Positions 6,693-58,692 of a stretch of 58,692 bases of DNA are shown here, piece by piece. The notes beneath the pieces are model-generated. The model did not search any database. It saw nothing but the letters and a program-made list of their open reading frames with translations, and was not told the DNA's origin. The translations under genes were made by a program, and so were the position numbers. Numbering within the stretch: position 1 is the first letter of the stretch; every line of letters starts with the position of its first letter. The DNA is from Candidatus Kapaibacterium sp. (lineage in GTDB: Bacteria; Bacteroidota; Ignavibacteria; Kapaibacteriales; UBA4661), in contig JALONG010000024.1 in the NCBI GenBank assembly GCA_025455065.1, positions 1 through 58,692 on the forward strand, given 5' to 3'.

Positions 6693-6700
6693 AATGTTTG

Positions 6701-6757: not shown

Positions 6758-6867
6758 AAGAAGGTTGTGGTTGTGTAGGAGGTGTTTTTGTTGCCGAAAG
6801 CAGTGAAATTCACACACAATGCTAACGCACACTCGCTGATGCTACGGACGATAAATGCAGCCCTCCG

Positions 6868-8418: not shown

Positions 8419-8773
8419 AACACACAAATAGATAAGAGATTGAACACACAACACATCCTGATAATTCCGCCTTCGCGCAATAACTTTCTTGTGGAAAGGA
8501 ATGCAACCACGATGTGCTAAAAATTATGGTAGCAAAATACAGGAAAAATAACGGCACTTCGCCTCGTATTCTCTCAAAAAATTACACTATTCTATCATTT
8601 TCATTTGGTAGTGCGGAAGATTTAAGTATTTTGTGTCTGATTTAGCTTTCTTCCTATATTTGAAGCACTTATTAGCATTGGTTGTCTAAGGTATGAGCAT
8701 CGTTTGTGTGAATGATCTTGCCGGGTTGGTTATTGTTTAATTCCTCCTTTTTACCTTGTTTTGCTTCGTATCC
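8419..8773. promoter_or_regulatory. Divergent regulatory region between aldehyde dehydrogenase and araC-like gene
   Basis: This 355-bp AT-rich gap separates the minus-strand dehydrogenase from the plus-strand AraC-type regulator. It contains a plus-strand promoter (see 8630-8662). I could not find a perfect promoter for the minus strand or convincing paired operator repeats, but the arrangement suggests the AraC protein controls both directions. Confidence 0.5.
8630..8662 (+). promoter_or_regulatory. Bacteroidota-type promoter for the AraC regulator
   Basis: TTTG at 8630-8633 is followed after 21 bp by TATATTTG at 8655-8662, an exact TAnnTTTG match. This is the -33/-7 pattern described for Bacteroidota primary sigma factors. 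The first plausible start codon is at 8774, leaving a leader of about 105 nt. Confidence 0.5.
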
Positions 8774-9730
8774 ATGAATACTGAATTATTTCACCATTCG
8801 GGCGTATCATATCGTCCGCAGGTGCAGCATTTGACTGCATACCAGAACCTCCAGACCACCGTTGAGAATCGCACAATTTATTCGATGAATCACTGCGAAC
8901 TCAATATCTTTGAAACGCACCAACAAAGCAGCAATGTGCGCTTGCAGTTCGGTCATTTAACCTTTACGGCAATGCTGCGGGGCAAAAAAGTGATGCACTT
9001 GCACAAGGGGAAAAATCGGTTTGAGTATCTTCCGGGGGAATCGGTCGTGTTGCCGGATAACGAAGAAATGGTGATTGATTTTCCCGAAGCAAGCCCTGAA
9101 AACCCAACGCAGTGTATCGCCCTTGTCATCGAAAAGCAGAAAGTGGAAGAAACCTTGGATATGCTCAATGAACGGCACACAAAGGTCGAAACACACGATA
9201 GGTGGATGCTTGATACAGCGCAGTTTCATCTCCAAAATTCTCAAGCAATGACGCATACGATTGACCGATTGATGTTTATTTCCAAAGAGCAACACAGTGC
9301 CAAAGATGTATTGGCTAATTTTGCGCTGCAGGAACTGCTTATTCGGCTCATGCAAACGCAAGCACGCACCCTCATTCTCGGCAATCACCGACAATACTTG
9401 ACAAGCCACCGTTTTGCGGCAGTGGTCGAATATATTCAGCAGCATATCACCGAGCCGATAAGCGTTGAGCAATTAAGTCGCATAGCGTATATGAGCCAAC
9501 CACATTTTTTTCGGTGTTTTAAGCAAGAATTTGGTATTTCTCCGACTGAGTTTCTGATTCAAGAACGTCTGCGCTTGGCAAAGGAGTTCTTGCGTAACCC
9601 GCGAATAAGCGTGATGGACGCTTGTTTCAAGGCAGGGTTTAACAGTGTGAATTACTTTTGTTCAACCTTCAAAAAACATGAAGGTCTTTCACCCAAAGCG
9701 TATCAATTAAAACTGCGATTAGGGGTTTAG
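8774..9730 (+). CDS. AraC-family transcriptional regulator
   Basis: The ATG at 8774 is preferred over the one at 8756 because the extra residues are hydrophobic and unconserved-looking; it gives 318 residues. The N-terminal half has the look of an AraC_N/cupin-like sensing domain ('GKNRFEYLPGESVVLPD'). The C-terminal 100 residues contain two helix-turn-helix motifs: 'ISVEQLSRIAYMSQPHFFRC', then 'FKQEFGISPTEFLIQERL' and 'VMDACFKAGFNSVNYFCSTF', ending with 'GLSPKAYQ'. It is divergent from an aldehyde dehydrogenase/DUF779 pair and most likely regulates it in response to an aldehyde or alcohol. Its 3' end is convergent with the efflux operon, 49 bp away. Confidence 0.93.
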   Translation: MNTELFHHSGVSYRPQVQHLTAYQNLQTTVENRTIYSMNHCELNIFETHQQSSNVRLQFGHLTFTAMLRGKKVMHLHKGKNRFEYLPGESVVLPDNEEMVIDFPEASPENPTQCIALVIEKQKVEETLDMLNERHTKVETHDRWMLDTAQFHLQNSQAMTHTIDRLMFISKEQHSAKDVLANFALQELLIRLMQTQARTLILGNHRQYLTSHRFAAVVEYIQQHITEPISVEQLSRIAYMSQPHFFRCFKQEFGISPTEFLIQERLRLAKEFLRNPRISVMDACFKAGFNSVNYFCSTFKKHEGLSPKAYQLKLRLGV

Positions 9731-43523: not shown

Positions 43524-44260
43524 TACCTCTTAGGACTTTCGCAAATTTGACAGGCAAGGGGTCAAAAACCTTGTTAAATAAAGACTTAGCAGAAAAGGGG
43601 CTTGACCTCTTGCTCTAAAGAATGCACTTTTGCGAAAGTCCTACTTCTGCTGGTTTGAGTCTTATCACCTCTTTGAAAACATTGTGCCTGTGCCGATATG
43701 TTGGGATTGTATCAACTTCGGCGCTACGCAAATTTTCCTGCCCCGTGTCATAAACCTTGCCTATTCTCCTCGAACAGATTCTAAGCAAATCTGTCCATGA
43801 TTTTTTTGGGGGTAAGTGTATGCTTTCAAAAAATTTAAAGGTAGCGTATCAACCTCTTCAACGTAGCACGACATTTTGAGGAATATCGGTTGGTTTTTTC
43901 CTGATTTACAACGGTCATACATTTTTCCGTAGGTCTCAACGTAGTTCTCAGTTGGATAAACTCTACAGTTTTTCAGATTGCTCAACCAAGCCCTGACAGG
44001 GTTTGATACACCTGTTTTTTGCTGAAAAAAGGGGAAATTTCTTTCCATCTGGCATGGTCTGTGCCTCCATAACGACACTCGGTTCCAGTATCCTTCCACA
44101 GCGACCGCCCCCATAACTCTCGCATTAATACTCACTTTGGTATGATTTTTGCAAAAGGGAATTGTTTATCGGATTAACGTAATTTTATGCCAAAACTTGG
44201 CGTAAAATCAGTAAATTCCATCAAGGTTTTCTCGTGGATGTCTCAAATTTTCCTTCTGTT
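43524..44260. other. Long intergenic region with a MITE and a degenerate repeat
   Basis: This 737-bp stretch contains MITE copy 2 (43531-43643) and, near 43986-44010, a near-palindrome AAGCCCTGACAGGGTTT of a type common in Bacteroidota intergenic DNA. A minus-strand frame at 43761-44135 encodes 124 residues with no recognisable domain and no supporting start signal; it may be a relic. Confidence 0.5.
43531..43643. mobile_element. MITE copy 2 (113 bp)
   Basis: It has the same 15-bp ends as copy 1, TAGGACTTTCGCAAA and TTTGCGAAAGTCCTA, and the same internal core TTGTTAAATAAAGACTTAGC. It differs from copy 1 (23136-23249) at about ten positions, including one deletion. It follows the cyclase stop codon by seven bases. 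Confidence 0.85.
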
Positions 44261-47200
44261 ATGAAACCGATTCCAACAATGAAACAATCAGCGCTTGGGT
44301 TGAAATGGTTGCAAGCTGCTTTACACTTGAGTTTACGGACAAAAACACTGTGGCGAAACGCTATACTTTTTTTGATTGTTGTTATTGCTACTGCCGGGAA
44401 TCTTCAAGCGGTTGATTACTTTTATCAATCCGGCGACCCCGCAGTGTTGGCAAATTGGAATACCTTGCTGGGCGGCGGTGGTGCTACTCCGCCAAATTTT
44501 ACCACGATGACTGACCGCTTTTTCATTCCCAATGGGCGAACGGCGGTTTTGCTTTCCAATCTCACTTTCGGTTCAAATGTTCTGTTGCAAGTGCAGACCG
44601 GAGGCGGCTTAAACGCTCAAGGGTTTTCGTTTTTGGGTGCAGGAGATTTTGAATTGCAAAACGGCTCTTTCCTCATTACTGCTCACGCAAACGGGGTAAA
44701 CGGTGGAACGGTGCAGAATACCGGTGCACGCACATATGGTGCAACGGTTTCGTACACCTTCAATGCAGTAGCACTAACACAAAGCACGGGTTTCCTGCCC
44801 GGAATGCCGATTGGCGCTGCTCAGGCAATCACGGTGAATAATCAAAATGTGGGAACACCGGGGACGCTCGTGTTTGATAACAGCATGACGCTGACGGGCG
44901 CACTGACCATTGTGCGAGGTACGGTGGACTGTGGAGCAGGGCTGAATCACACGTTTAATGGCGGCGCAAACAGCGTTGTTGTTTCAACAGGAACGGTGTT
45001 TATTCGTCGAAATGGGAATATTACCGCTCCTGCTGGAACGTTTCAATATGTTGCCGGTACGCCCATTCCGCAACTGCGCTATGATGCGGGCATGGGAATG
45101 TTGGTAACATCCAGTAGTGAGCTGCCTTCAACAATGCCGGGAGAGGTTCGCATTGAAAACAACATGACCTTGCAACTTGGCGCCAGCATTAGTGCTAATG
45201 CGCCCTTCACGGCAAACGGTTCGCTCAATTTGGGAACATTTTCCTTAACAAACAATTCTTCCTTCAGCGTTGGAGCGACTAGCGTGGTGGACATGAACGC
45301 TGGCACAATGACGTGGAATGGCGCTGTTTCCTTCACAACAGGGCATTTATTCCAAGATAATTCCGCAGGAGGCAATGCGACGCTCAATCTTGCCGGAAGT
45401 GGCGCAATCACGGGATCTCTGCAATGGCTTGGAGGATTAAATAATCTGGGAACATTGACGATAAACCGCATCGGCGCTACGCTCACGGCAGTCGGGACAT
45501 TGACAATCGCCAACGCACTTTCTTTGCAACAGGGCTTCATTGCGGCAACAGAAGTCAGCGTTACTTCGCCCATGATTACTGCCATTCAGGGCGGTTCTTC
45601 GGCTTCCTACGTACTCGGACGCTTGAGACGGCGCGTTCCTCCGAATCAAACCGGCTCACCGAATTTTCTTTTTCCTGTCGGAACAGGCGGAACGTATATG
45701 CCGATCAGTTTCACTGATGCCGTAACGGGACCGGGCGCTCCATCTGTTATTATTGAGGCGTTTACCGGCTTAACAACGGGTGTTTTGGGGGCGAACGTGT
45801 CTTCGCTCAGTTCGATTTATTGGCAAGTTCAACCCGGAGTTGCCGGTGATTACACACAGATGGCTCTTGTTGCGATGCGCTCTACGCCGCCTTTGCTTGT
45901 TACAAGCTCGGCGTTTACAGGAGCAAATGCTACAAATGCTACATTTTCCTTGCTCAATAGCAACGTAACGGGTTTAATTCTTCAAACAACGCGCTTTCCT
46001 GTTAGCGCCGTAGGACCGAGTTTTTTTGCTATTGGCAACGCTACTCCTATTCCTGTTATCACAAGTTTTTCGCCTGTAACGGGTGGCAATGCAACTATTG
46101 CGACAATTACAGGCATGAATTTCACCAATGCCTCGCAAGTAACATTTGGCGGTACACCTGCACAAAGCTTTCAAGTGCTTTCGCCAACAGTGATTCGCGC
46201 AACGGTAAATAACGGCTCAACCGGTCCAATTAGCGTTGTAACGCTCGGAGGCACCGGTTTTTCTTCTACAACCTTTGCTTATGCGCCGCCACCGCAAATT
46301 ACCGGTGTTACGCCCACAGCGGGAGGCAATACCACGATTGTTTCCTTGCGCGGACGTAACTTGGCTTCTACCGGAACCGTTACCTTTGGGGGGCGGCTGA
46401 TGACGATTGTGTTGCGCACCGATACGCTTGTACAAGTACGCTGCTCAACGGTTGATGTATCGGGTGCAATTGCCCTTGGAACCTTGGGCGGTGCTACAAC
46501 AACAACGAGTACATTTTCGTATCTTTTTCCGCCAAGCATTACAGCATTTTCGCCTCCGGTCGCAACTCGGTTGAATGTACTGACGATAACAGGCGCAAAT
46601 TTGAGTATCGTCAATAGTGTTACTGTCGGCGGAGCTCCTGTATTGTCGGTAACGGTCAATTCCTCAACGCAAATTAGTATTGCTTTGCTTGAAGGATCAA
46701 CAGGCACAATCGTTGTACGGACACCTGCCGGAGAAGCTATCAGTCAGCGAACCTTCTTCTATGCCGAGCCGCCAAGACTCTCCGGTGTATTTTTTAACGG
46801 ATTGCCTACCAATACTGCCGTTGCCGGCTCAACATTGCTGGTGCGCGGGCAGAATTTCCTGTTTGCGACAACTGCAAACATCGGCAATGTCACCGCAGCA
46901 ATCGTGGCAATTCTCAGTTCTACCGAAATGACTATTCGCCTGCCGCTTGATGCTGTTACGACCGCCTCATTGCGTGTAGCCACTCCGGGAGGGCTTGCCA
47001 CAACAACAGCACAATTTACCGTGCTTCCGGGGCAGGCAATCACGGACGTTTCGCCCATCAATGGCACGACAGGAACGCTGGTGAGCATCACAGGGCGAAA
47101 CTTCCCGCGTGATGTTGCCGTGAATATCGCCGGAACATCCGCATCAAGCGTGATTGTGGTCTCGACAACGCAGATTTTGGCGGTGGTGGGGGCGTTGCCT

Positions 47201-50200
47201 CCACGCACAACACGGGGCGCGATTACGGTTAGTTCGACGCTGGGGACATTTAGTACGACCACACAATTTATCGTTAGCAACGTAACGCCTGTTATTGCAG
47301 CGATTTCTCCGCTCACGGCGACGTTTGGCTCGATTGTCCAAGTCCGAGGGCAGTTTTTGACGGGAGTGCGTGAAGTCAGTATCGGCGGCGCTCGCGCGGA
47401 GATTGTCGAGAGTGTTTCACCAACAGAATTGCTGGTGCGGGTTACAAGGCAGAATACAAGCGGCACAATGACGCTCACCACGCTCGGAGGCTCGACGACT
47501 TCAACGCTACGGATGACGATTATTCCATCGCCGTTTATTGTGAGTTTTTCACCGCCCTTTGCCGTGTCGGGAGCAACAATCACGCTGCGTGGCGGCAATT
47601 TTACGGGAACAACATCCGTTATTTTTGGCACGATGCCCGCGACACAATTCAATGTCCTTTCCGATTCCGTCATGACGGCAACACTCGGAACAGGCTCCAC
47701 AGGGCTTATCCGCATCGCAGGAGCTAGGGGGACGGCTGTTTCGCCAACGGAATTGCGCGTAGTGTCGCAGTTAGACTTTGAAACCGAGGTTTTGCGAGTC
47801 TTGTACGATAGTTTGGGCGGTGCTTCGTGGAATAACCGCGCTACCAATCGCTGGCTTTCCGGCGACCCTCCGTCGGAGTGGACAGGAGTAACCGTGCAAA
47901 ACGGGCGCATCACGCAAATACGCCTCCCGGACAATGGTTTGCGAGGGCGTTTGCCGGATATTTTGGGCGAACTGACTGCACTCCGCGTCTTAGACCTAAC
48001 CGATAACAATATCACCGGAACGTTCCCCGCGTGGATTCCTCGTGCAACGACGCTGGAAGAAGTGCGAATCGGCGGGAATCAATTTACCGGTACGCTGCCC
48101 GACAGCCTTGGTGTGATGCCGAATTTGCGGGTGTTCGTCGCTGACCGTAACCGCCTTTCTGGTGCGCTCCCGCAAACGCTTTGTTCGCTGCAAGTGATTC
48201 GAGACCTCAATCTGAATCAAAACGCCTTCACAGGCGAGATTCCACCGTGTTTTGGGCAATTACGCACGTTACAAGCGCTTGATTTGGGACAAAATATGCT
48301 TGCCGGAACGATTCCGACGGAATTGGGCGATTTGACCGATTTACAATCGCTCTATCTGCACAGAAACCGTCTGAGCGGCACGATTCCTGCCTCGTTGGGC
48401 AGTGCAACAGCAGCAACACTAACGGCGATGACAAGCGAAAAGGGAAGTTCATCGCTCACGGCTGCCAATAACCTGCGCCGACTGTGGCTTGGCGGGAATC
48501 AACTGACGGGCGAAGTTCCTGAATCTATGCGCTCGCTGACGGCATTGGAAGAATTGCTTTTAGACAACAACCAACTTTTCGGCGAAAGCGTTATGCGCAT
48601 TGTGCCGAGTTTAACGAACTTACAAACGCTGGACATTGGGCGAAATCGCTTCTCCGGCACTCTGCCCAACACGCTTGGAAACCTCAGGCGTTTGCGCTTT
48701 TTGGCATTGCGGAATAACACCTTTAGCGGCGTAGTTCCTACCACGCTCGGTAATTTAGACACGCTCCAAAGTTTGTTTTTGGATAGCAACGCTTTCACGG
48801 GAACAGTGCCCGCGCAGTTTGGCGCACTGAGGAATTTGCAAACGCTGGGTTTGTCGTTTAACCAATTTACCACGCTGCCCCGCATGAGTGCTTTGCTTTC
48901 GGTTTTGTCGGTGCAAGGAAATCGTTTGCAATTCGGCGATTTGCAAACAAACGCTGCCGTGCCGGATTTTACCTACATTCCGCAAGACAGCATCGGTGCA
49001 GTGCGGGATACGGGCGTTGTTATCGGAAATCCGATGCTTCTGACGGTAAACGTTTCGGGGCGCGATAATCTGTACCAATGGTTCAAAAACGGTGTGGAAG
49101 TGCAGACAACTTCGGCAACGGTGGGCTTCCGCGTGGAGCAGTTCGCGGTGCAAGACACGGGTGTTTACACCTGTGCCGTCACCAATCGGCTTATTGAGCG
49201 ATTGACGCTTGTTTCGCGCCCGATTCGTGTGCGAGCATTAGAGCCGCGTCCGCCGAATCAAGCACCGGAACTTGTGTTTCCACAAAGCGGGGCAACCTTT
49301 GTGGCGTTTTCGCCTACGATGCAGTGGACGCGGGTTGATAATGCTATTCGCTACGAAGTGCAGGTTTCGCAGTTGTCTGATTTTACGCTGCTGACAACCA
49401 CTGCCAACGTGCGCTCCGCCGACACAACGCTCACCACCATCAACACGCGCATTGACGGTCTGGAGCCGCTCACGCTCTATTATTGGCGTGTTCGTGCGCT
49501 CAACGGCGTGGATGTGGCAAGTGCATGGTCGCAGGTCAATAGCTTCATTACGGCTCCGTCGGGCGTGGATGTTTCGATTAGTTCTATTAATTTCGGCAAC
49601 GTTATTTTGGGCGAAACAGCGACGGGAACAGCATTTTTGACGAATTTGACGAATCAAAATTTGGTCATTGTGGATATTGACGGCAACGATAATGAGTTCA
49701 GTTTCCGCATCCCGCTTGATGTGCGCTCGCTGCGCTTAAATGCAGGGCAGACGGTCTCAATTCGAGGAATTTCCTTTGCTCCGCGCAGTCCGGGCATCAA
49801 AACGGCTTCGGCACGAATCACGTACATCAAATCCAACGGCGACACCGCAGCAGTGCGCTTGGATAACGTGCTTTTGGGACGCGGAACGCCTATTCGCATT
49901 GATTCGGTGAATTTTGACACGATTCGTGTTGGGCGCACGGCACAAACGCTTGCACAGTTGTCCAATAGAGGCGGCGTTACAACCCGCGTCATTATTGACA
50001 GCGTTGCGATTGTGGGCAGCACCAACGGTTTTGCGGCAGAGCGCTTAACCGAACCTCTGTACATCAATTCCGGTGCGGCTTCGTCGGTGATTGTGCGCTG
50101 CGCACCAACAACGACGGGTAATGTTTCCGCCAATCTGCGCTATTGGGCGAGATTTATTCAGCCCAACGCCAACGGAACGAGTGTTATTTTCCGCGACACA

Positions 50201-51031
50201 CTCACAACCCGCGTCAGTGCTGTTGTTCGCGATACACTCATCACCGATTTTGTGTATGCCGTCGGTGTTCGTCCTGCGCGTGGGCAGGAACGATTGCCGC
50301 CCGGTAGCGCGGTGCGAATGGAAGTGTATATCGCACGGGGAGATATGGGGAATCTCATTCAATTCCGTCCGCTTTCATACAGCACGATTATTCGCTTTAA
50401 CAGACAGGTGCTGGCTTTTGGCACAAATCCGCTTCCGCTCAGAGCAATTTTTAATCCCGAAGCAAACAACAATATCCAGCGCATTTCGGTAACAGTCGGA
50501 ACGGTGAGCCAAAGCGCTCTGGGGCAATTAACGCGGGATAGTGTGTTGTTTCGCTTTACCTGCACGGCGGTCGCCGGGGAAACCACACAAACTCCGATAG
50601 AACTGGAGTATTTCCGCCTTTCGGTTGATACGGTGCGTGCAACGGCGTTCCCACAGGCGTTTACGGCTGGGGAGCGCGTCGTGTTCGTGGAAGGTTTGGA
50701 ACGTTCTTCGTTTACCGCAGCAGCTTCCCGAGCAGGCGGAACGCGGCTTATAGCCCGTGCGCCCACAACAACGGCAACCTTGAGTGCCGTTGCACCAAAT
50801 CCTGTGTTGGACGCGGGACAGGTGAAATTTACTATTGCCGAAGCAAGTCCTGTGCAGCTTGTGTTGGTGGATATTTTCGGCAATGTACTGAAGGTGCTTG
50901 CGGAATACCCAATGGCAAGCGGCGAATACACAGCGTCTGTGCCGATGCAGGACGTACCGACGGGAACGTACTTTGTGATGCTGCGCACTCCTCAGGCGAT
51001 TTTGACCGAGCGCGTGCAGGTGCGAAGGTGA
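44261..51031 (+). CDS. Giant secreted surface protein: IPT/TIG repeats, plant-type LRRs, Ig-like domains, T9SS-like sorting domain
   Basis: From the ATG at 44261 the protein has 2256 residues (a GTG at 44234 adds nine; an ATG at 44279 is also possible). A signal segment 'AILFLIVVIATAGNLQAV' is followed by about 550 residues of Gly/Asn/Thr-rich beta structure. Seven or so IPT/TIG repeats follow (about 46050-47750; recurring 'ITGVTPTAGGNTTIVSLRGR' pattern). About ten LRRs of the plant receptor type come next ('NGLRGRLPDILGELTALRVL', 47790-48950), with a 'LYDSLGGASWNN' cap before them. Then come an Ig-like domain, a fibronectin-like domain, choice-of-anchor/ASH-like repeats and a C-terminal sorting domain ('PTGTYFVMLRTPQAILTERV'). 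It is probably a surface adhesin or substrate-binding protein. Confidence 0.9.
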   Translation: MKPIPTMKQSALGLKWLQAALHLSLRTKTLWRNAILFLIVVIATAGNLQAVDYFYQSGDPAVLANWNTLLGGGGATPPNFTTMTDRFFIPNGRTAVLLSNLTFGSNVLLQVQTGGGLNAQGFSFLGAGDFELQNGSFLITAHANGVNGGTVQNTGARTYGATVSYTFNAVALTQSTGFLPGMPIGAAQAITVNNQNVGTPGTLVFDNSMTLTGALTIVRGTVDCGAGLNHTFNGGANSVVVSTGTVFIRRNGNITAPAGTFQYVAGTPIPQLRYDAGMGMLVTSSSELPSTMPGEVRIENNMTLQLGASISANAPFTANGSLNLGTFSLTNNSSFSVGATSVVDMNAGTMTWNGAVSFTTGHLFQDNSAGGNATLNLAGSGAITGSLQWLGGLNNLGTLTINRIGATLTAVGTLTIANALSLQQGFIAATEVSVTSPMITAIQGGSSASYVLGRLRRRVPPNQTGSPNFLFPVGTGGTYMPISFTDAVTGPGAPSVIIEAFTGLTTGVLGANVSSLSSIYWQVQPGVAGDYTQMALVAMRSTPPLLVTSSAFTGANATNATFSLLNSNVTGLILQTTRFPVSAVGPSFFAIGNATPIPVITSFSPVTGGNATIATITGMNFTNASQVTFGGTPAQSFQVLSPTVIRATVNNGSTGPISVVTLGGTGFSSTTFAYAPPPQITGVTPTAGGNTTIVSLRGRNLASTGTVTFGGRLMTIVLRTDTLVQVRCSTVDVSGAIALGTLGGATTTTSTFSYLFPPSITAFSPPVATRLNVLTITGANLSIVNSVTVGGAPVLSVTVNSSTQISIALLEGSTGTIVVRTPAGEAISQRTFFYAEPPRLSGVFFNGLPTNTAVAGSTLLVRGQNFLFATTANIGNVTAAIVAILSSTEMTIRLPLDAVTTASLRVATPGGLATTTAQFTVLPGQAITDVSPINGTTGTLVSITGRNFPRDVAVNIAGTSASSVIVVSTTQILAVVGALPPRTTRGAITVSSTLGTFSTTTQFIVSNVTPVIAAISPLTATFGSIVQVRGQFLTGVREVSIGGARAEIVESVSPTELLVRVTRQNTSGTMTLTTLGGSTTSTLRMTIIPSPFIVSFSPPFAVSGATITLRGGNFTGTTSVIFGTMPATQFNVLSDSVMTATLGTGSTGLIRIAGARGTAVSPTELRVVSQLDFETEVLRVLYDSLGGASWNNRATNRWLSGDPPSEWTGVTVQNGRITQIRLPDNGLRGRLPDILGELTALRVLDLTDNNITGTFPAWIPRATTLEEVRIGGNQFTGTLPDSLGVMPNLRVFVADRNRLSGALPQTLCSLQVIRDLNLNQNAFTGEIPPCFGQLRTLQALDLGQNMLAGTIPTELGDLTDLQSLYLHRNRLSGTIPASLGSATAATLTAMTSEKGSSSLTAANNLRRLWLGGNQLTGEVPESMRSLTALEELLLDNNQLFGESVMRIVPSLTNLQTLDIGRNRFSGTLPNTLGNLRRLRFLALRNNTFSGVVPTTLGNLDTLQSLFLDSNAFTGTVPAQFGALRNLQTLGLSFNQFTTLPRMSALLSVLSVQGNRLQFGDLQTNAAVPDFTYIPQDSIGAVRDTGVVIGNPMLLTVNVSGRDNLYQWFKNGVEVQTTSATVGFRVEQFAVQDTGVYTCAVTNRLIERLTLVSRPIRVRALEPRPPNQAPELVFPQSGATFVAFSPTMQWTRVDNAIRYEVQVSQLSDFTLLTTTANVRSADTTLTTINTRIDGLEPLTLYYWRVRALNGVDVASAWSQVNSFITAPSGVDVSISSINFGNVILGETATGTAFLTNLTNQNLVIVDIDGNDNEFSFRIPLDVRSLRLNAGQTVSIRGISFAPRSPGIKTASARITYIKSNGDTAAVRLDNVLLGRGTPIRIDSVNFDTIRVGRTAQTLAQLSNRGGVTTRVIIDSVAIVGSTNGFAAERLTEPLYINSGAASSVIVRCAPTTTGNVSANLRYWARFIQPNANGTSVIFRDTLTTRVSAVVRDTLITDFVYAVGVRPARGQERLPPGSAVRMEVYIARGDMGNLIQFRPLSYSTIIRFNRQVLAFGTNPLPLRAIFNPEANNNIQRISVTVGTVSQSALGQLTRDSVLFRFTCTAVAGETTQTPIELEYFRLSVDTVRATAFPQAFTAGERVVFVEGLERSSFTAAASRAGGTRLIARAPTTTATLSAVAPNPVLDAGQVKFTIAEASPVQLVLVDIFGNVLKVLAEYPMASGEYTASVPMQDVPTGTYFVMLRTPQAILTERVQVRR

Positions 51032-51074: not shown

Positions 51075-51854
51075 TTAACTAAAATAGTTGATTAGAGAAG
51101 TTCTATAAAGTTGAGATACTTCCAACTCAATAAATTTTATTTCCGATTGCTCATACCTCAAAATAATCGAACATTGTTTTGCTTTGGGTATGATTTCATC
51201 AATAAACTTAGCATTAACTATATAAGAGCGGTGAATTCTAAGAAATCCCATTTGAAGTAATTTTTCTTCTAGTGATCCCAATTGCTGTGTAACTATGTTT
51301 TGTGTGCCATCGGTAAAAAGAATTTTTGTGTAATTTCCTTGTGCTTCACAGAAAAGAATATTTTCAGTTTTTATGATACGAAGGCTTTTCCCAAGTGATA
51401 TTGATAATGATTGCCCTTGAGTTACGGGCAATTGTGTATTTACATTATTGCCTACTTTGAGAATTGAAGGTGCTTGTTGTGCAATAAATGAGTATGAGAC
51501 ATAGACTCTTTGTATTGCTTCTGAAAGATTATCAATGTCAATTGGTTTAAGAATATAATCAATTGCTTTGTACCGAAACGCCTGCACAGCAAATTGGGGA
51601 TGACTTGTAACAAAGATAACAGCAAAATTGGGATCGTCAAAAACATCAAGGACATCAAAGCCTGTTCCTCCTATAATTTCAATATCTAAAAAAACAATAT
51701 CAGGCTTGTGCTTTTGAATTTCATCAATAGCACTATTAACGGAAAAAGCCTCAGCAACAACAATAACCTCATCGTTACATACAGTCATTATCCTATGTTT
51801 TAAAAGAGAACGCTGAGGCTCTTCATCATCAATGACAATTGCACGTAGTACCAT
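51075..51854 (-). CDS. LytTR response regulator of the Kelch-kinase operon
   Basis: The 259-residue protein has a receiver domain with D9/D10, phospho-acceptor D57 in 'DIVFLDIEIIGG', T83 and K103 in 'YILKPIDI', then a LytTR domain (about 155-259) with 'ILFCEAQGNYTKILFTDG' and 'FLRIHRSYIVNAKFIDEI'. It is third in a minus-strand operon: the Kelch-only membrane protein (54023-55459), the Kelch-LytS kinase (51918-54026), then this regulator 63 nt later. The kinase is its obvious partner. Its likely target is the repeat array at 55570-55620 in the promoter of the divergent NHL gene. Confidence 0.93.
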   Translation of the reverse strand: MVLRAIVIDDEEPQRSLLKHRIMTVCNDEVIVVAEAFSVNSAIDEIQKHKPDIVFLDIEIIGGTGFDVLDVFDDPNFAVIFVTSHPQFAVQAFRYKAIDYILKPIDIDNLSEAIQRVYVSYSFIAQQAPSILKVGNNVNTQLPVTQGQSLSISLGKSLRIIKTENILFCEAQGNYTKILFTDGTQNIVTQQLGSLEEKLLQMGFLRIHRSYIVNAKFIDEIIPKAKQCSIILRYEQSEIKFIELEVSQLYRTSLINYFS

Positions 51855-51917
51855 ATAAAATGAAAAATATAAGCTGTTCTATGATAAACATTTAGATAGC
51901 ATTACCGACAGATTGTT

Positions 51918-54026
51918 TTATGTAATTTCAGAAAGAATGGGTAAGTAAAGAGTCACCCGAGTTCCAGATGGAATTCCATTCGGCATAAATAAATCTTCGT
52001 ATTGTACATTCTGTTCTTGCATATTAAAGGCATTTAATAGCGCTAAACGCTCTGTATTGACGCGGGTAGAACGACCTAGGCCCGACGAAAATTTTAGATT
52101 GCCTTGAGCGTACTTCCTTCCAACGCCATTATCTTCAACGGTACAGAGAATAAACGCATTATTACCCACTGTGGTATAATGAAATGAAATGTTTATATTG
52201 CCTTTTCGTGATTGATGAGGAAATTTGTAGTTAAAATCCTGAAGCAATCCAATTCCGTATTTAACAGAATTTTCTATATAAGGTTGAGTAAGCATTGCAG
52301 GAATACGAACTTGCAAATATGAAACTATGTGACTGTCATTAATTGAATAATCAAAAGTATTTCCTGTTCGTAATTGCTCAAGAGCAAGGTATTCGCGTAG
52401 AAAGAGGATCTCATCTTGTAAAGATATGCTTGTATTATCGCTGTTATTAAGAATATTACGCAATAATCTCGAAAAAACTCCAATGTAATGTGATGCTTTA
52501 CTCGTCTCCTGCTGAACTACTAACGATTCAAGCGAAGAAAGTGAGTTGAAAATAAAGTGCGGATTCATTTGCAAATAGAGCGTTTGTAGTTGTAAACTCA
52601 TTGATCTGTTTTGTATCTGCTCTTTTTCAAGTTGTAGCTCAATTGAGTGAACAAGCATTTGCTCGTTTTCACGTCTAATAAGTTGGTAGTGCCTTTCAAT
52701 TGATGTTTGACGTTGTAGCGAATTTACCAGATATACCAATGTTAGGGTTAATGTGAAAAGCCCAACAATAAGTATGATAAGGACTGTTGGAGAAAACCAC
52801 TGCCAGATTATTGCAATGCTATTATCATTTATTTGGGAATCCCAAATATTTTTCTCAAATATTTGTTCAAGAACTTCAATTGAAGAAAGAATCAGCCCTT
52901 GAGAATTTTTTCCGCCCACAACAAAAACTCTTGCTTGATATTGTCTTCCATAATCATCAAATACGGGGGTGCTGATTGATGAAGCATTTGATAGAGGTTC
53001 CAAAAGATTTGGACCACGACTGCTTTTTTCTAAAGCTATATTAAGCCATTCGGATTTATTGCTTATTGCTTGTCCTTTGTTTTGCCCACCTAATACGAGA
53101 ATTGAATCTACGTTCCACTGAACAAGAGCTTGTCCATTGCTGCAATGGGAAAGCGATGCTATTTTTCTAAAACCCGACAATGATTCTATGCAAATTATTG
53201 ATGAATCAGTGTATTGAGATAAGGAATTGCCATTGTTACCAAGTATAAGCAGTCGATTATCGAATAACCTTAATAGAGAAGGAGATTGAAATAAGAATGG
53301 ATACTCATTAAAATAGCACCATGCGGATTTTTTTTCATCATACCAATATATACTATTTGTATGAAGAGAAGTATTTTTAGATATGGCGATTGCTTTGCCA
53401 TATGAGGTTAATATTGATACCGCACATAATATGGGTGTAGATTGGCTAGGAAATTCCGTAACAATACGGCTTTGTTTCGTTTTAATATTGAGTATTTCTG
53501 TTGCCTGTATCGGCTTATTGCGACTATCAACTCCTCCAACAACAAGAATTTGCTCATTATCAATAAACGTTGCAGAATGTTTCTTTCTGGCAATACGTAG
53601 CGAGCCGATAATATGCCATGTTTTAGATTCTCTATCAAAATACTCACAAACAGACGTAAGTTTATTCTTTGAGCCAATGCCACTGAGAATAACCAAGTTA
53701 GAATCACCGCGTTGGACTAAAGCTGCTTCTGCGTGAGGTTCAAATGTCGAATTTGCATCAACTACTTCGGTCGTAGATATATTTATGACTTCACAACGAT
53801 TTGTTGCTTGATATTGATTGTTTCTTAATGTATCACTATAACCACCAATTACTAAGATGTAATTATGACTTATTGCCGCAAGGTTACATGAGAAGCGGGG
53901 AATTTTCAAATAGCCCTTAATTTTCCATTGTAACGTAGAATTGCTATCAGACCCATACATTGCAGATATATGAAATAATAGGGCAGATACCTGAATAATG
54001 ATCGTCCGATATACCATATTTCTCAT
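51918..54026 (-). CDS. Kelch-propeller sensor histidine kinase (LytS-type)
   Basis: This 702-residue protein joins an extracytoplasmic Kelch-repeat beta-propeller (about residues 30-390) to a kinase. Kelch blades carry the paired glycines and spaced Trp ('VCEYFDRESKTWHIIGSLRI', 'HSATFIDNEQILVVGGVDS', 'VFVVGGKNSQGLILSSIEVL'). A TM helix ('WFSPTVLIILIVGLFTLTLT') and coiled coil follow. The kinase core is the His_kinase family: H in 'QMNPHFIFNSLSSLESLVVQ', N-box 'YIENSVKYGI', G-box 'VEDNGVGRKYAQGN' and a final 'GLGRSTRVNTERLALLN'. The start overlaps the stop of the Kelch-only gene by 4 bp (ATGA). I know of propeller-type LytS sensors in Bacteroidota, but they usually carry Reg_prop repeats rather than Kelch. 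Confidence 0.9.
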   Translation of the reverse strand: MRNMVYRTIIIQVSALLFHISAMYGSDSNSTLQWKIKGYLKIPRFSCNLAAISHNYILVIGGYSDTLRNNQYQATNRCEVINISTTEVVDANSTFEPHAEAALVQRGDSNLVILSGIGSKNKLTSVCEYFDRESKTWHIIGSLRIARKKHSATFIDNEQILVVGGVDSRNKPIQATEILNIKTKQSRIVTEFPSQSTPILCAVSILTSYGKAIAISKNTSLHTNSIYWYDEKKSAWCYFNEYPFLFQSPSLLRLFDNRLLILGNNGNSLSQYTDSSIICIESLSGFRKIASLSHCSNGQALVQWNVDSILVLGGQNKGQAISNKSEWLNIALEKSSRGPNLLEPLSNASSISTPVFDDYGRQYQARVFVVGGKNSQGLILSSIEVLEQIFEKNIWDSQINDNSIAIIWQWFSPTVLIILIVGLFTLTLTLVYLVNSLQRQTSIERHYQLIRRENEQMLVHSIELQLEKEQIQNRSMSLQLQTLYLQMNPHFIFNSLSSLESLVVQQETSKASHYIGVFSRLLRNILNNSDNTSISLQDEILFLREYLALEQLRTGNTFDYSINDSHIVSYLQVRIPAMLTQPYIENSVKYGIGLLQDFNYKFPHQSRKGNINISFHYTTVGNNAFILCTVEDNGVGRKYAQGNLKFSSGLGRSTRVNTERLALLNAFNMQEQNVQYEDLFMPNGIPSGTRVTLYLPILSEIT

Positions 54027-55459
54027 GATTGTTGCCTACTTTCGAGATTTGCAACATTGGGGCTATCAAGAATCTTTACACGTAGCTTACGTCGGATGCG
54101 CAGAATTTTTAAAGTGATGTACAGAAGACCAATGATAAGTAGAATAATCAGTAAATGTAATGCGATGATTACATAATGAGAGAAAAGTTTCTTTTGTAAC
54201 CGCAAACGAGAAATCAAGGAGGAAGGAATATTAATTAATGCCTTATCTGAAGTTTCAAGAATTTCTATACTATTGTGAAGAACATTACTTCCATTCTCTC
54301 CACCAATAGCAAGAACAGATTTCTTCGTAATTGCTCCCTGGAGATTACGTACTTCCAGCACTATTGCCTGCATTTCAACTCTCATTTGTAATAACTTCGG
54401 GGCTTCTACAACCGACCCGCTTTCCAAGTCGAACCACTCTGATTGCTGCTGAGGTTCTCTTCCTACTTGAATTGAGCCTCCAATGATTAAACCAATATTA
54501 TTACCCCAACTTATCATTTGACCAATTACTCGACTCTCAAAAGATAAATTCTTGATGGGATGAAAACCCAATGAGTTTTCCACAAGCATAATTGGGGCTT
54601 GGGGCTTACTCGCCCAAGTAGTACTAAAAAGAGCGAATTGATTATCCGATAGCCGTACTCCGTTGCCCGCGATAACACCTTGAAATGCTCGTTTCCATTG
54701 ATTTTTTGCTTTGTCATACTCGTAAAGGCAGGCATTACGAAAACTATCTTTTCCGCCGGTCCGTCCTCCGGTAGCAAGAATTCTCCCCGGCGCTGCTATT
54801 TGTGATATAAAAAGGGTTGTTATTTCTGAAGGAGAGGGGAAATGAGCAATTGCGTGGCTTTTTCTTGTCGTGATATTGAAAATCTCCGCATCACTAATGA
54901 CTGCCTGACCAGACCTGCCGCCAACGATAAGTATTTCTTCCGAATTTATCATTATTGCCGAATGCATCCAGCGAGCGGTGACGAGGTTGCCAATAATTTC
55001 CCACTGACCGGTTTTGCGATTATACAGTTCACAAACCGAAGTTACTTTTTTACTTGTGTCCAATCCTCCTAAGATAATAACATTGGAGTCAATAGTTCGT
55101 ATTAAGGCTCCATGAGCATGTCCTACATTCATTGAAGATGCCATAAATACACAACAACGTTCAATATCAATAATTTCACACTCCCGGCTAACAACGCCTT
55201 CTTCTCCGCGCCAAGAAACATTCTGTATGAACCCTGCCGTTACTAAAACTTGCGTGGGAGAAAGCGCTATCGCTCCAAACCGATGATATCCATTATGAAG
55301 ATTGCCAAAATGTTTCCATCGGAGTTCTTCTTTCTGTGCAAATGTTTGCAACGGTAATAAACTCCATATAATCGTAATAGCTTTGAGTGTCCATAGTAAA
55401 TATTTACTTACAATGTCGCGGTAATTGACAGACCAAAATAAACAAACAGACCAAAGCAT
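54023..55459 (-). CDS. Kelch-propeller membrane protein without kinase (putative co-receptor)
   Basis: This 478-residue protein starts with two hydrophobic stretches, the second ('AITIIWSLLPLQTFAQ') a likely signal peptide. The Kelch propeller covers about residues 45-410 and aligns along its whole length with that of the neighbouring kinase: compare 'VCELYNRKTGQWEIIGNLVT' with 'VCEYFDRESKTWHIIGSLRI', and 'HSAIMINSEEILIVGGRSGQ' with 'HSATFIDNEQILVVGGVDS'. A TM helix ('YVIIALHLLIILLIIGLLYI') and a basic cytoplasmic tail of about 30 residues end the protein; there is no kinase. It is first in the operon and overlaps the kinase by 4 bp, suggesting coupled translation and a physical partnership. 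The function is inferred. Confidence 0.88.
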   Translation of the reverse strand: MLWSVCLFWSVNYRDIVSKYLLWTLKAITIIWSLLPLQTFAQKEELRWKHFGNLHNGYHRFGAIALSPTQVLVTAGFIQNVSWRGEEGVVSRECEIIDIERCCVFMASSMNVGHAHGALIRTIDSNVIILGGLDTSKKVTSVCELYNRKTGQWEIIGNLVTARWMHSAIMINSEEILIVGGRSGQAVISDAEIFNITTRKSHAIAHFPSPSEITTLFISQIAAPGRILATGGRTGGKDSFRNACLYEYDKAKNQWKRAFQGVIAGNGVRLSDNQFALFSTTWASKPQAPIMLVENSLGFHPIKNLSFESRVIGQMISWGNNIGLIIGGSIQVGREPQQQSEWFDLESGSVVEAPKLLQMRVEMQAIVLEVRNLQGAITKKSVLAIGGENGSNVLHNSIEILETSDKALINIPSSLISRLRLQKKLFSHYVIIALHLLIILLIIGLLYITLKILRIRRKLRVKILDSPNVANLESRQQS

Positions 55460-55569
55460 AGTATTTCAAGATTTTGACACGGAAATAGAGAGTGTAAATC
55501 TAAAGAGATGCTATAATAAGAAATATTTCTCCAAATGCCATAGAAAATTCTGTAAGAAAAAAGGGAATT

Positions 55570-55620
55570 TCATACAGTCAGGAGCCCAATTCATACAATC
55601 AAAAGCCCAACTCATACAAT
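55570..55620. promoter_or_regulatory. 21-bp-spaced direct repeats, putative LytTR operator
   Basis: Three copies of a nine-base word occur at exact 21-bp spacing: TCATACAGT (55570), TCATACAAT (55591) and TCATACAAT (55612). The spacers between the first copies are similar (CAGGAGCCCAAT and CAAAAGCCCAAC). A nine-base half-site repeated with a 12-bp spacer is the architecture known for LytTR regulators such as AgrA. The array ends 17 bp before the -33 element of the NHL promoter, a normal activator position. Confidence 0.5.
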
Positions 55621-55636
55621 ATTGACCTTCCTGCTC

Positions 55637-55668
55637 TTGTTATCCCCTACACAGATATAGTAGTTTTG
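55637..55668 (+). promoter_or_regulatory. Bacteroidota-type promoter of the NHL gene
   Basis: TTG at 55637-55639 is followed after 21 bp by TAGTTTTG at 55661-55668, an exact TAnnTTTG. The spacing equals that of the AraC promoter at 8630-8662. The start codon is at 55777, so the leader is about 100 nt. Confidence 0.55.
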
Positions 55669-55776
55669 CAGCCAAGAATACCGTAAAAAACATTGACGTG
55701 AATTCTTTTTCTTGGCAATTAATAACTCTCCGGCGTTACAGTGGAGATTCAGTGTATTATTTTTTTTGGAGTTTTT

Positions 55777-58692
55777 ATGAATGTTCACACTTTGTCGAAT
55801 CGCAATAATTCTTTGGAGCGATTTCGGCATCTCAAGGATTACCACACTAAACATGGTGCTGCGTTTGCGGCTATGGTTTATATGCTGGTGATTTTCTCGC
55901 TTCCAATGATGAGTTTTGCTCAAGTTGGTACTGTTTCTACCTTTTCGGGTACAGGGATACCCATGGCAAATGGATATATGGTAGATGGTGGAGCTTTAAC
56001 AACCGCAAAATATCGGAATGCAAGGTCAATCACACTAACGCCCTCTGGTAATCTTTATGTGCTTGATGCTTATGCTGTTAGGCAAGTCAATCCTGTTTCC
56101 GGTGATGTAATTACTTTAGCTGGGGCAGACGAAGCAGGCTATGTTGATGGGCCTGGTGTTGTTGCAAGGTTTGAAAGCCCAAGCAATATTTCGTCGGATA
56201 ATTCAGGTAATCTTTATGTTACCGATGCTAACAGAATTAGGATGATAACTCCAAGCGGTGACGTTAGTACATTTGCAGGAAATGGAATTAGTGGGCATGT
56301 GAATGGTTTTCGTACGTTAGCACAATTCAGTTCCCCAAATAGCATGGCATTTGACAGTTTCGGCAATATGTACGTGAGTGATAACCATAGAGTTCGTAAA
56401 ATTGCTCCGGATGGTATGGTTTCAACGCTTTTTAACAACCTATATAATACAGACATAATTCAGAATGCAGGAGCGTTAGCTGTTGATCAGAATAATAATC
56501 TTTATATTGGTGGCGTAGGTATCTGGAAGGTAACCCCATCGGGTGATTTTTCTTTTTTATTTCAAAGCTGGAATGTATCGTATATTGATGGTTTTCCTGG
56601 TGGATCACTCGTCATGCCATTAGGTATGAGTGTTGATCCACAGGGAAACTTGTTATTGGCACAGGGGTTTATTATTACAAAACTTACGCCGTTAGGCGCA
56701 TATAGAATTGCTGGTGCTGATTATTCGTACGGTTATATTGATGGTCATGGTAGTGTGGCAAAGTTCTACAATGCCTCTGGAGTGGTTCAAAATGCTGCCG
56801 GAGAACTTTTTGTTGCTGATAATACCAATCAGCGAGTACGCAAAATTACGCCTGGTCCCGCCGCGCAACCTCCAACATGGGTAAACCAAACGCCATCATT
56901 GAATGGCACAATAGGTGCTCCATACAGTTATACTTTCCTTGCCAATGGTATTCCAACACCAACCTATAGCCTTATAAGCGGTACACTTCCTTCGGGATTG
57001 AGTTTTAATCCAAGCACAGGTGTTCTTTCAGGTACTCCAACTTTGGCTGGTAGCTTTGGGCCGATAGTTATCGGCGCAAGCAACAGTGCTGGGGCAATCA
57101 CAAGTACACCGTTTATTATAGTAATACCGAGTGTCAATCAGTCTCCGACATGGGTAAATCAAAGCCCTGCACTTACAGCAAATGTCGGTGCCGCATACAG
57201 CTATACCTTTCTTGCTAATGGTATTCCAACCCCCACTTATAGCCTTGTAAGCGGTACGATTCCTGCTGGCTTGAGTTTTAACCCAAGCACAGGTGAATTT
57301 TCAGGCACACCGACCACAGCAGGCAGTTATGGACCAATAGTAATTGGTGCAAGTAATAGCGAAGGTTCAATTACTAGTATCCCCTTTACTATCGTTGTTT
57401 CGAGTGTCAATCAAGCCCCAACATGGGTAAACCAAACGCCATCATTGATAGCAAATGTTGGCACCGCTTATAGCTACATCTTCCTTGCTAATGGTATTCC
57501 AAACCCTACCTACAGCCTTGTAAGCGGTACACTTCCACCAGGGTTGAGTTTTAATCCCTCTACAGGCGAACTCTCCGGCACACCTACGACGGCAGGCAGT
57601 TACGGACCGATAGTTATTGACGCTAGTAACAGCGAAGGCTCTATTACAAGCACTCCGTTTACGATTGTTGTGCCAACAGTTTCTTGTACATATCCCGTTA
57701 CAACCTTTGCTGGAGGCGGCGCGAGTGCAGTTGTCGATGGCACAGGCACAAGCGCACAATTTGGTAGAATCTACGGCATGGGTGCCGATGTGGCAGGAAA
57801 TATCTATCTGACCGACGGCGCTGCCGGAACGGGTCAAGCAAAGATTCGCAAAATTACTCCCGCAGGAGTTGTTTCAACGATTTATACAAATCCTACTCCT
57901 AGCCAACTTCTATCACCTGGCTTAGGTACAGATGCTTCCGGCAATGTATATTTTGCTGAAGGAAAAATCATCAAAAAATTAAGCCCCGCCGGTACAGCAA
58001 CAACCATTGCTGATGTCACTGGCGTATCCGGTAATGTACAAGATGTCGCTGTTGATGATGCGGGTTTTGTATATTACACTGATGGGTCGAATATCAATAA
58101 GATTAGCCCTTCGGGTACAAATACCCTCATTACAACAATAGCTGCTGGCATTTATGAATTAGTTGTGTATTCGGACGGTACAATGTATGTCAGTAGCTCA
58201 AATACGGCAGCAAGTCCCGGCAATAGAGTGTATAAAATTACTCCTTCGGGCGTAGTTACTCTACTTGCCAGCGACGGTTTATCAAATCCGAGCGGCTATA
58301 GCGGTAACACGGGCATTGTTCTTGATGCGTCCGGTAACCTATATGTTTCAGATTATCATACCAGCACAATTCGTTATGTGAATACAGCAACGGGTGTCAT
58401 GACCACTATTGCCGGAGCATGGTACACATTTGATGATGTTGATGGCAATGGTCTGAATGCAAGAATCGCACTGCCTTGGGGATTAGGTCTCAACGCAAGC
58501 GGAGAGTTGTACATAGCGAACAATTATACACGTGTTCGCAAACTGAATACGTGCGGTGTTGGCGGATATTTCCCAAATCCCAATGCAAATATAGTCGCCC
58601 CAACATGGGTAAATCAAAGTCCTGCATTAACGGGCAGTGTAGGCGTAGCATACAGCTACACCTTCTTAGCAAATAGCTTCCCGACACCGACA
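55777..58692 (+). CDS. Large secreted NHL-repeat protein with putative Ig (He_PIG) modules, partial
   Basis: The reading frame is open from the ATG at 55777 to the window end (972 codons, no stop). GGAG lies six bases upstream. A signal peptide ends near 'FSLPMMSFAQVG'. NHL-type propeller repeats follow ('PSGNLYVLDAYAVRQVNP', 'DNSGNLYVTDANRIRMITPS', 'ADNTNQRVRKITPG'). Then come three tandem putative-Ig modules of exactly 273 bp period starting at 56872, 57145 and 57418, each beginning 'PTWVNQ' and containing 'GLSFNPSTG' and 'LSGTP'. A second NHL block occupies about 57690-58590, and a fourth Ig module starts at 58600. It is a secreted, probably surface-attached repeat protein; a C-terminal sorting domain may lie outside the window. 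It is divergent from the Kelch operon. Confidence 0.9.
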   Translation, partial: MNVHTLSNRNNSLERFRHLKDYHTKHGAAFAAMVYMLVIFSLPMMSFAQVGTVSTFSGTGIPMANGYMVDGGALTTAKYRNARSITLTPSGNLYVLDAYAVRQVNPVSGDVITLAGADEAGYVDGPGVVARFESPSNISSDNSGNLYVTDANRIRMITPSGDVSTFAGNGISGHVNGFRTLAQFSSPNSMAFDSFGNMYVSDNHRVRKIAPDGMVSTLFNNLYNTDIIQNAGALAVDQNNNLYIGGVGIWKVTPSGDFSFLFQSWNVSYIDGFPGGSLVMPLGMSVDPQGNLLLAQGFIITKLTPLGAYRIAGADYSYGYIDGHGSVAKFYNASGVVQNAAGELFVADNTNQRVRKITPGPAAQPPTWVNQTPSLNGTIGAPYSYTFLANGIPTPTYSLISGTLPSGLSFNPSTGVLSGTPTLAGSFGPIVIGASNSAGAITSTPFIIVIPSVNQSPTWVNQSPALTANVGAAYSYTFLANGIPTPTYSLVSGTIPAGLSFNPSTGEFSGTPTTAGSYGPIVIGASNSEGSITSIPFTIVVSSVNQAPTWVNQTPSLIANVGTAYSYIFLANGIPNPTYSLVSGTLPPGLSFNPSTGELSGTPTTAGSYGPIVIDASNSEGSITSTPFTIVVPTVSCTYPVTTFAGGGASAVVDGTGTSAQFGRIYGMGADVAGNIYLTDGAAGTGQAKIRKITPAGVVSTIYTNPTPSQLLSPGLGTDASGNVYFAEGKIIKKLSPAGTATTIADVTGVSGNVQDVAVDDAGFVYYTDGSNINKISPSGTNTLITTIAAGIYELVVYSDGTMYVSSSNTAASPGNRVYKITPSGVVTLLASDGLSNPSGYSGNTGIVLDASGNLYVSDYHTSTIRYVNTATGVMTTIAGAWYTFDDVDGNGLNARIALPWGLGLNASGELYIANNYTRVRKLNTCGVGGYFPNPNANIVAPTWVNQSPALTGSVGVAYSYTFLANSFPTPT
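56872..57690 (+). repeat. Three 273-bp tandem DNA repeats in the NHL protein gene
   Basis: Units start at 56872, 57145 and 57418, with identical spacing and long stretches of near-identical DNA (for example around TATACCTTTCTTGCTAATGG). They encode 91-residue putative-Ig modules. A fourth unit begins at 58600 after an NHL block. Confidence 0.85.

Follow-up and report, generated by a model that had tools for sequence, protein, structure and literature searches.

The DNA analysed here, called the window, is the whole of contig C63 of genome G000 (58692 bases), and it probably encodes a two-component system of the LytS/LytTR kind in which a Kelch propeller serves as the extracytoplasmic sensor. 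Such systems have one to five further Kelch membrane proteins, all lacking a kinase, in the same gene row, and their regulator would activate genes for large secreted proteins. A preliminary description had seen in it a candidate new signalling circuit, too strong a term for a known two-component type with an unusual sensor and co-receptors. How might such a system work? A periplasmic ligand (a peptide, a piece of glycan or a secreted protein on its way out) would bind the propellers of the kinase and/or of its kinase-less sisters. The sisters may join the kinase by way of their related transmembrane segments and control how active it is. In turn, the kinase would phosphorylate the LytTR regulator, and this regulator would bind direct repeats of 9 bp with a period of 21 bp, some 60 bp before the transcription start, and presumably activate, not repress, large secreted NHL/Ig/IPT genes. 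The predicted targets are one adjacent gene for the window system (55741+) and a small regulon of secreted-type proteins for a second system. Tentatively, one might go further and picture a combinatorial receptor, in which Kelch ectodomains with diversified blades and a homogenised membrane segment share one Kelch-LytS kinase, several periplasmic ligands are read to choose among large surface proteins, and regulator and operators co-diverge between paralogous systems. For a poorly studied group, the scheme offers a wiring of the large NHL/Ig/IPT surface proteins that can be tested, from sensor and kinase-less co-receptors through regulator and operator to targets. If the Kelch proteins without a kinase do feed one kinase, this would be a receptor/co-receptor array within a two-component system, an arrangement that to our knowledge is rare in bacteria.

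Gene organization of the window

Open reading frames and Pfam bear out the gene set described earlier: a kinase-less Kelch protein with a transmembrane helix (Kelch-TM), a Kelch-LytS kinase, a LytTR regulator and a divergent secreted NHL/Ig protein (Table 1). The junctions are also as claimed, with an ATGA overlap between the Kelch-TM and kinase genes and a 63-nt gap before the regulator gene. The divergent protein matches He_PIG (110.4 bits) and NHL (64.7 bits) over the curated Pfam cut-offs. A scan with NCBIfam gave nothing over cut-off. The repeat scan found no 21-bp repeat upstream of the convergent IPT/LRR/Ig gene. The host is a little-known freshwater bacterium.

Table 1. Features of the Kelch locus and its surroundings, in window coordinates
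Feature	Position	Strand	Remarks
Four-gene arrangement	51075-55459; 55741->58692	-; +	minus-strand trio and divergent ORF
IPT/LRR/Ig protein (2265 aa)	44234..51031	+	convergent neighbour; T9SS sorting-domain match under cut-off
REC-LytTR response regulator (259 aa)	51075..51854	-	Pfam
Kelch-TM-LytS sensor kinase (702 aa)	51918..54026	-	His_kinase PF06580; N and G boxes by motif
Kelch-TM protein without kinase (478 aa)	54023..55459	-	proposed co-receptor; Kelch propeller, one C-terminal TM helix, short basic tail
Tandem direct repeats, 21-bp period	55569..55623	+	predicted LytTR operator pointing at NHL gene; missed in the preliminary description
TAGTTTTG	55661..55668	+	match to TAnnTTTG; candidate -7 element
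Secreted-type NHL/putative-Ig (He_PIG) protein	55741..58692	+	cut by contig end; likely ATG start 55777; predicted target gene

A Kelch propeller in place of a multi-TM sensor

Are the two Kelch proteins truly of one kind? The 478-residue protein matches Kelch_4 (61.2 bits) and, in Pfam, no kinase family; the 702-residue kinase matches Kelch_1 (58.6 bits) and His_kinase (73.7 bits), all over curated cut-offs. An alignment of their Kelch parts over 368 residues, at 31% identity (E 1e-43), shows homology, and AlphaFold models both as Kelch propellers matching KLHL3 and other Kelch domains (E about 1e-16). Kelch motifs and a modelled beta-propeller fold are found together, and the models do not bear out the possibility raised earlier that the two are unrelated folds. 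Hydropathy, with a threshold of 1.8 for a membrane helix, calls one C-terminal membrane helix in each (residues 430-448 in the Kelch-only protein and 406-424 in the kinase, whose structure model has a helix at 412-439). The N-terminal segments have the look of signal peptides by eye and are modelled as helices, and in both window proteins they stay below the threshold. Judged from sequence, both sensors resemble type I proteins of the inner membrane, and since we take the host group to be diderm, the propellers should be periplasmic. This makes the proposed sensing of an outer surface unlikely if it means direct touch.

The kinase has an H box (NPHFIFNSL) and, by motif only, N and G boxes (ENSVKYG, EDNGVG); the ATPase family PF02518 is not among its Pfam matches. 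In the adjoining gene, the regulator matches Response_reg (63.1 bits) and LytTR (54.8 bits) over curated cut-offs, and its receiver keeps the Asp/Thr/Lys residues, including the phospho-acceptor Asp. As in BtsS/BtsR, YpdA/YpdB and LytSR, a PF06580 kinase and a REC-LytTR regulator share one gene row, and the operators, predicted ones here, are direct repeats. A 5TM or 7TM input module is typical of LytS and BtsS. In the Kelch kinase this multi-TM module is absent, with one adjacent TM helix by hydropathy and a Kelch propeller instead, so it is not a classical LytS sensor. Further differences from these systems are the one to five kinase-less paralogues alongside and the large secreted proteins predicted as targets.

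A second comparison is with the Reg_prop/Y_Y_Y LytS kinases of Bacteroidota and relatives. With the Kelch clade set aside, the kinase that matches best (genome G009, contig C201) has Reg_prop, Y_Y_Y and His_kinase, and the regulator adjoining it ranks second among regulator matches from outside the group; a kinase of this type is the probable source of the kinase half. Its propeller, however, belongs to another family, and the three Kelch kinases have no match to Reg_prop or Y_Y_Y in Pfam scans to E 0.1 and E 0.001. Nor does the G009 pair have a kinase-less sister gene alongside, within its contig (about 0.7 kb upstream). Among the best matches in the CC-licensed PMC literature (titles and abstract starts) there was no paper on a bacterial Kelch histidine kinase.

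Recurrence of the module

Does the module recur, as the preliminary description supposed, near other secreted repeat proteins? It does, as a second copy in the same genome and as a five-receptor version in a congener. The second unit (contig C54) comprises a regulator, a kinase and two Kelch-TM genes with no overlaps, the congener (G007, contig C46) has a regulator, a kinase and five Kelch-TM genes in one operon with 4-bp overlaps, and in a third genome (G004) a Kelch-TM gene lies where the contig ends. A large NHL gene adjoins all three complete loci (window, C54 and G007); of the 29 other LytTR loci in the genome, 4 have large secreted-type ORFs alongside. The C54 and G007 loci are probably orthologous, which makes two independent systems, not three.

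Full-length Kelch-LytS proteins gave only three matches, all in one genus (two in G000, one in G007), among the scored candidates from overlapping sets of 123 genomes of the order, 395 of the phylum and 391 of the class. As few candidates were scored per genome (the best 9 for the order, the best 2 for phylum and class) at E cut-offs of 1e-45 and 1e-30, distant Kelch-LytS proteins could escape this search. The remaining matches, among those listed, cover the Kelch part or the kinase part alone. Nine of 16 ORFs fetched for other kinase matches were scanned, and none carried Kelch: the five shorter ones have TPR and the four longer ones Reg_prop. A search of genome contigs returned four loci, and one of viral contigs a single weak match.

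The kinase-less Kelch proteins

What is the function of these sisters? In a tree of 20 Kelch parts (with a midpoint root for drawing only), the three Kelch kinases form one clade (support 100/100) and nine Kelch-TM proteins a separate one, with two rows on long branches and a support of 92/91 that lies below the tree's 95/80 mark. This separation suggests that the pairing of Kelch-TM protein and kinase probably predates the split of the systems. Overall dN/dS between Kelch-TM copies is 0.20-0.27 in the four pairs tested, that is, purifying selection. Their membrane-proximal block is 93-98% identical (dS 0.09-0.26), and in the most variable propeller blocks identity goes down to 27-60%. Positive selection on the array was not seen at these overall values; in some blocks dS is high or could not be computed. 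A point against the scheme is that the two window proteins share only 21% identity in their TM segments (42 positions), compared with 33 and 43% for two G007 copies.

The kinase-less proteins might be inhibitors or titrators, like the membrane proteins of LytTR Regulatory Systems (LRS), instead of ligand-sensing co-receptors. We regard this as rather unlikely. LRS are not known to have a receiver domain or a kinase, whereas in the window a receiver domain and a kinase with its boxes are present; in addition, variable blades next to a near-constant membrane segment suggest different ligands and not mere titration. Speaking for inhibition, Kelch-TM genes precede the kinase gene, the proteins keep a short cytoplasmic tail, and the LRS membrane partner is described as inhibitory (PMC6193735). 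HdrRM and BrsRM also combine a LytTR regulator and a membrane partner with 9-12-9 direct repeats upstream of promoters, but they are described as autoregulating their own operon (PMC6193735), whereas here the repeats precede NHL genes.

Predicted operators and regulator specificity

The window repeat, of TACARTCA type, was detected at 55569-55620 in the divergent gap and has 9-mers at 55573 (TACAGTCAG), 55594 (TACAATCAA) and 55615 (TACAATATT, a partial copy). None of 2000 dinucleotide shuffles of the window gap reached the observed repeat value at any period from 10 to 59. TAnnTTTG is the -7 element of Bacteroidota, and the window match starts 46 bp past the start of the last repeat, compared with 52 bp in the second system, a mismatch that counts against the scheme. 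Repeats of 21-bp period precede all three NHL genes (26, 22 and 24 of 30 positions match), with a 12-bp spacing between the 9-bp repeats in every locus. As sequence geometry this lies within the 10-13 bp described between the 9-bp direct repeats of LytTR operators, for example CCCGCTTGG-12-GCCGCTTAG (PMC11347149, PMC6193735). Three direct repeats at two-helical-turn intervals, as in the window, are also described for CoxC/RcoM operators (PMC11347149), although those are one-component regulators and CoxC represses. Predicted operators of LytTR type before NHL genes lend weight to the earlier suggestion that the system controls a surface protein. A general pattern of 21-bp repeats before large genes that adjoin a LytTR gene was not seen; at another LytTR locus two adjoining large genes have upstream tandem repeats of other periods, so such repeats are not unique to the Kelch system.

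The second-type repeat, found at C54 and G007, is CCCGCTCAG. Its pair occurs 10 times in four genomes and 0 times in a reversed-pattern control, each time pointing at a secreted-type gene; eight of these are seen to encode at least 900 aa, and the other two run off their contigs after 332 and 575 aa. TAnnTTTG starts exactly 37 bp past the repeats in six of the ten, at 38 bp in one and at 25 bp in one, with no exact match in two; because some promoters are close copies of each other, the ten are not independent. A distance of 37-38 bp puts the proximal repeat near -60, where the AgrA site is likewise described (PMC4227749).

C54 and G007 share 72% identity in their LytTR domains and have one repeat sequence in common; the window domain reaches only 23-24% identity with either, and the window repeat is different as well. 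The receiver domains of the three regulators are 57-68% identical. That DNA-binding domain and repeat differ in step between these paralogous systems makes them a natural experiment in LytTR specificity. Could the repeats instead serve another LytTR regulator, the Kelch system lying beside the NHL genes by accident? The genome has 31 LytTR matches, and two genomes have sites with no orthologous regulator detected (see below). We nevertheless consider this unlikely, as repeats adjoin Kelch regulators in 3/3 complete loci, the repeat sequence changes along with the DNA-binding domain, and the window repeat (up to 2 mismatches) has no other occurrence in 10 genomes.

Sites and remnants in related genomes

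The two genomes, G001 and G002, are fragmented and hold one and two strong second-type sites; neither an orthologous regulator nor a Kelch kinase turned up in them, and the 17 LytTR proteins retrieved from the two include none whose DNA-binding domain is closely related (27-34% identity at best). With this fragmentation and a broken Kelch-TM remnant in G001, loss is possible; a different regulator could also bind these sites. That Kelch-TM genes in general are functionless leftovers of a tandem kinase duplication in which the kinase was lost, the working system being the Kelch-LytS/LytTR pair, is improbable: the decayed G001 copy, the homologous propellers and the varying copy number (one to five) would fit, but the purifying selection, the separate Kelch-TM clade, apparently older than the split of the systems, and the 4-bp overlaps in the window and G007 (not C54) speak against it.

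Autoregulation of the Kelch operon by way of these repeats finds no support at the other loci: upstream of the C54, G007 and G004 Kelch operons there is no period-21 repeat of comparable level. The window gap is common to both directions, so autoregulation is possible there.

The Kelch module and its origin

The Kelch module is most aptly described as a novel form of LytS/LytTR two-component system. All three of its minus-strand genes, and the gene divergent from them, lie and join as the preliminary description claimed, on one entire contig of a 5.6-Mb draft genome (131 contigs). Pfam matches are Response_reg and LytTR in the regulator, Kelch and His_kinase in the sensor kinase, Kelch alone in the kinase-less 478-aa protein (Kelch-TM), and He_PIG and NHL in the divergent product. 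The system looks active by sequence, because the kinase retains its H/N/G boxes and the regulator its receiver residues. The two Kelch parts (31% identity) are paralogues on sequence grounds. Each protein has one TM helix C-terminal to the propeller (hydropathy) and, in its AlphaFold model, an N-terminal helix of signal-peptide look that lies below the hydropathy threshold used. In Foldseek, the models (mean pLDDT 81.3, pTM 0.74 for Kelch-TM; 73.5 and 0.54 for the kinase) align with experimentally determined Kelch structures, among them KLHL3 and KLHL17, at E values of about 1e-15 to 1e-17. What could such propellers sense? An outside surface is unlikely, as the propellers are predicted to be periplasmic; they would more probably detect a soluble ligand or some secreted protein in transit.

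Features and their positions
Feature	Sequence	Strand	Position
REC-LytTR regulator	window	-	51075-51854
Kelch-LytS kinase	window	-	51918-54026
Kelch-TM	window	-	54023-55459
Period-21 direct repeats, 2.5 copies (TRF)	window		55569-55620
NHL/He_PIG gene	window	+	55741->58692
Small ORFs	L135 (G007:C44)		535-858, 1403-1720
REC-REC-LytTR regulator	L135 (G007:C44)		1910-3157
REC-REC-LytTR regulator	L136 (G000:C95)		1708-3114
Broken Kelch-TM remnant	L057 (G001:C441)		6458-7273
2923-aa secreted-type protein	L050 (G000:C79)		104-8875
ORFs behind tandem repeats	L154 (G000:C118)		8306, 11350
Inverted repeat, example	L094		about 1540-1560

The circuit proves to be a real, recurring gene module. A second unit in the window's genome (G000, contig C54) comprises a regulator, a Kelch-LytS and two Kelch-TM genes without overlaps, and another genome of the genus, G007, has a regulator, a Kelch-LytS and five Kelch-TM genes with 4-bp overlaps throughout. 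In G004 a Kelch-TM gene sits at a contig end and may belong to a unit cut there. Full-length Kelch-LytS occurs in two of eight genomes of the genus and in none of the other genomes searched outside it (no more than 2 or 9 candidates scored per genome). The broken Kelch-TM remnant in G001, just 5' of a giant IPT/LRR gene, suggests past loss of a unit.

In a tree of 20 Kelch parts, whose midpoint root is a drawing aid only, the three kinase propellers group (100/100), as do nine Kelch-TM propellers (92/91), and eight others, mostly secreted, separate at 96/95; long branches make the exact placement of two members, the window's Kelch-TM and C54's kinase, unsure. Outside the Kelch clade, the kinase half matches best a Reg_prop/Y_Y_Y LytS kinase (G009, C201). 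Among regulators outside the Kelch group, the one adjoining that kinase ranks second as a match, behind a REC-REC-LytTR protein on G007 C44. Replacement of the sensor would be the simplest origin of Kelch-LytS.

In both REC-REC-LytTR regulators the second receiver closely resembles the receiver of the Kelch systems. G007 C44 also has a pair of small ORFs whose leaders are alike and whose ends are Cys-rich; we take them to resemble RiPP (lanthipeptide-type) precursors. The 2923-aa protein carries a receptor-related Kelch propeller together with NHL repeats, IPT/TIG domains and a T9SS sorting domain, fusing a receptor-type propeller to target-type domains.

Proposed kinase-less receptor arrays

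Four Kelch-TM pairs (three in G007, one in C54) have whole-gene dN/dS of 0.20-0.27. A 45-column block containing the TM helix is 93-98% identical (dS 0.09-0.26), and identity drops to 27-60% in those propeller blocks that vary most. Since dS outside the TM block is mostly higher (0.21 to 4.8 or not computable; a single propeller block, in one of the G007 pairs, comes close at 0.21), the pattern suggests gene conversion or strong constraint at the TM block. Two G007 copies share 33 and 43% identity with the kinase TM segment over 42 positions; in the window the relation is weak (21%). Related, near-constant TM segments and variable propeller blocks would fit the proposed co-receptors, with a common membrane interface and different ligand faces.

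Predicted operators and targets

How would the module act on a surface protein? Repeats of LytTR type supply a plausible output for the control first proposed. In the window's divergent gap 26 of 30 positions agree at period 21, a value that 2000 dinucleotide shuffles never reach, whichever period between 10 and 59 is taken. Two period-21 repeats also precede each NHL gene next to the C54 and G007 units (22 and 24 of 30 positions). None of 13 other gaps inspected, one too short for the test, has such a repeat at a comparable level, though repeats with different periods occur in two gaps of another LytTR locus. The repeat pair, CCCGCTCAG-12-CCCGCTCAG, compares with the 10-13 bp spacing that one account gives for the 9-bp direct repeats of known LytTR operators (PMC11347149), for example CCCGCTTGG-12-GCCGCTTAG (PMC6193735).

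The repeat sequence shared by C54 and G007 (second type; up to 3 mismatches) marks three sites in G000, four in G007, two in G002 and one in G001 (C166), and none in six other genomes of the genus and family; the reversed pattern gave no match. A promoter model was built from these ten and so recovers them by construction; across 41 genomes, under strict filters, it added two weak sites and no strong one. All ten downstream products have a hydrophobic N-terminal stretch (by eye); eight targets reach at least 900 aa, and contig ends cut the others at 332 and 575 aa. Eight of the ten targets were scanned with Pfam and contain NHL, IPT/TIG, He_PIG, DUF5122, BNR and CUB domains, two having a T9SS sorting domain above cut-off; NHL repeats are present in the G007 C109 target. 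The window's pattern (up to 2 mismatches) has no other occurrence in ten genomes, so its system may have a single target.

Are large secreted neighbours simply common? Among 31 LytTR loci of G000, some near contig ends, a large (800 aa or more) secreted-type ORF adjoins both Kelch loci and 4 of 29 others; a fifth has an 870-aa neighbour without the secreted flag. A single-repeat search (E <= 1e-5), which missed the window's own NHL ORF and so gives lower bounds, found at least six NHL ORFs in G000 and at least five in G007, where one of the five found adjoins the Kelch regulator and another lies directly behind it.

LytTR domain and repeat sequence change together: the C54 and G007 domains (72% identity) accompany the same repeat, whereas the window's (23-24% to either) accompanies a different one, with receivers at 57-68% throughout. 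This supports the prediction that each regulator acts on its neighbouring gene. Against it, second-type sites occur in G001 and G002, although none of 17 fetched LytTR proteins from these genomes has a domain close to the second type. Their sites carry 2 and 3 mismatches versus 0-1 in G000/G007, from which the pattern was drawn, biasing the count in that direction; decay after loss of the regulator would fit, but the cause may equally be gaps in the assemblies or a different regulator.

TAnnTTTG starts 37 bp past the 38-bp repeat pair in six of the ten second-type promoters, at 38 bp in one and 25 bp in another; two lack an exact match. We take this motif to be the -7 box. If so, its spacing would put the proximal repeat near -60. 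For AgrA, one report places the proximal repeat at about -60 (PMC4227749). An inverted repeat, CTCTCA-N-TGAGAG, lies directly 5' of the direct repeats in eight of the ten promoters (L091-L100) and is possibly a second operator. Elsewhere in G000, 17-bp and 13-bp tandem repeats precede two large secreted-type genes adjoining another LytS/LytTR pair (L154).
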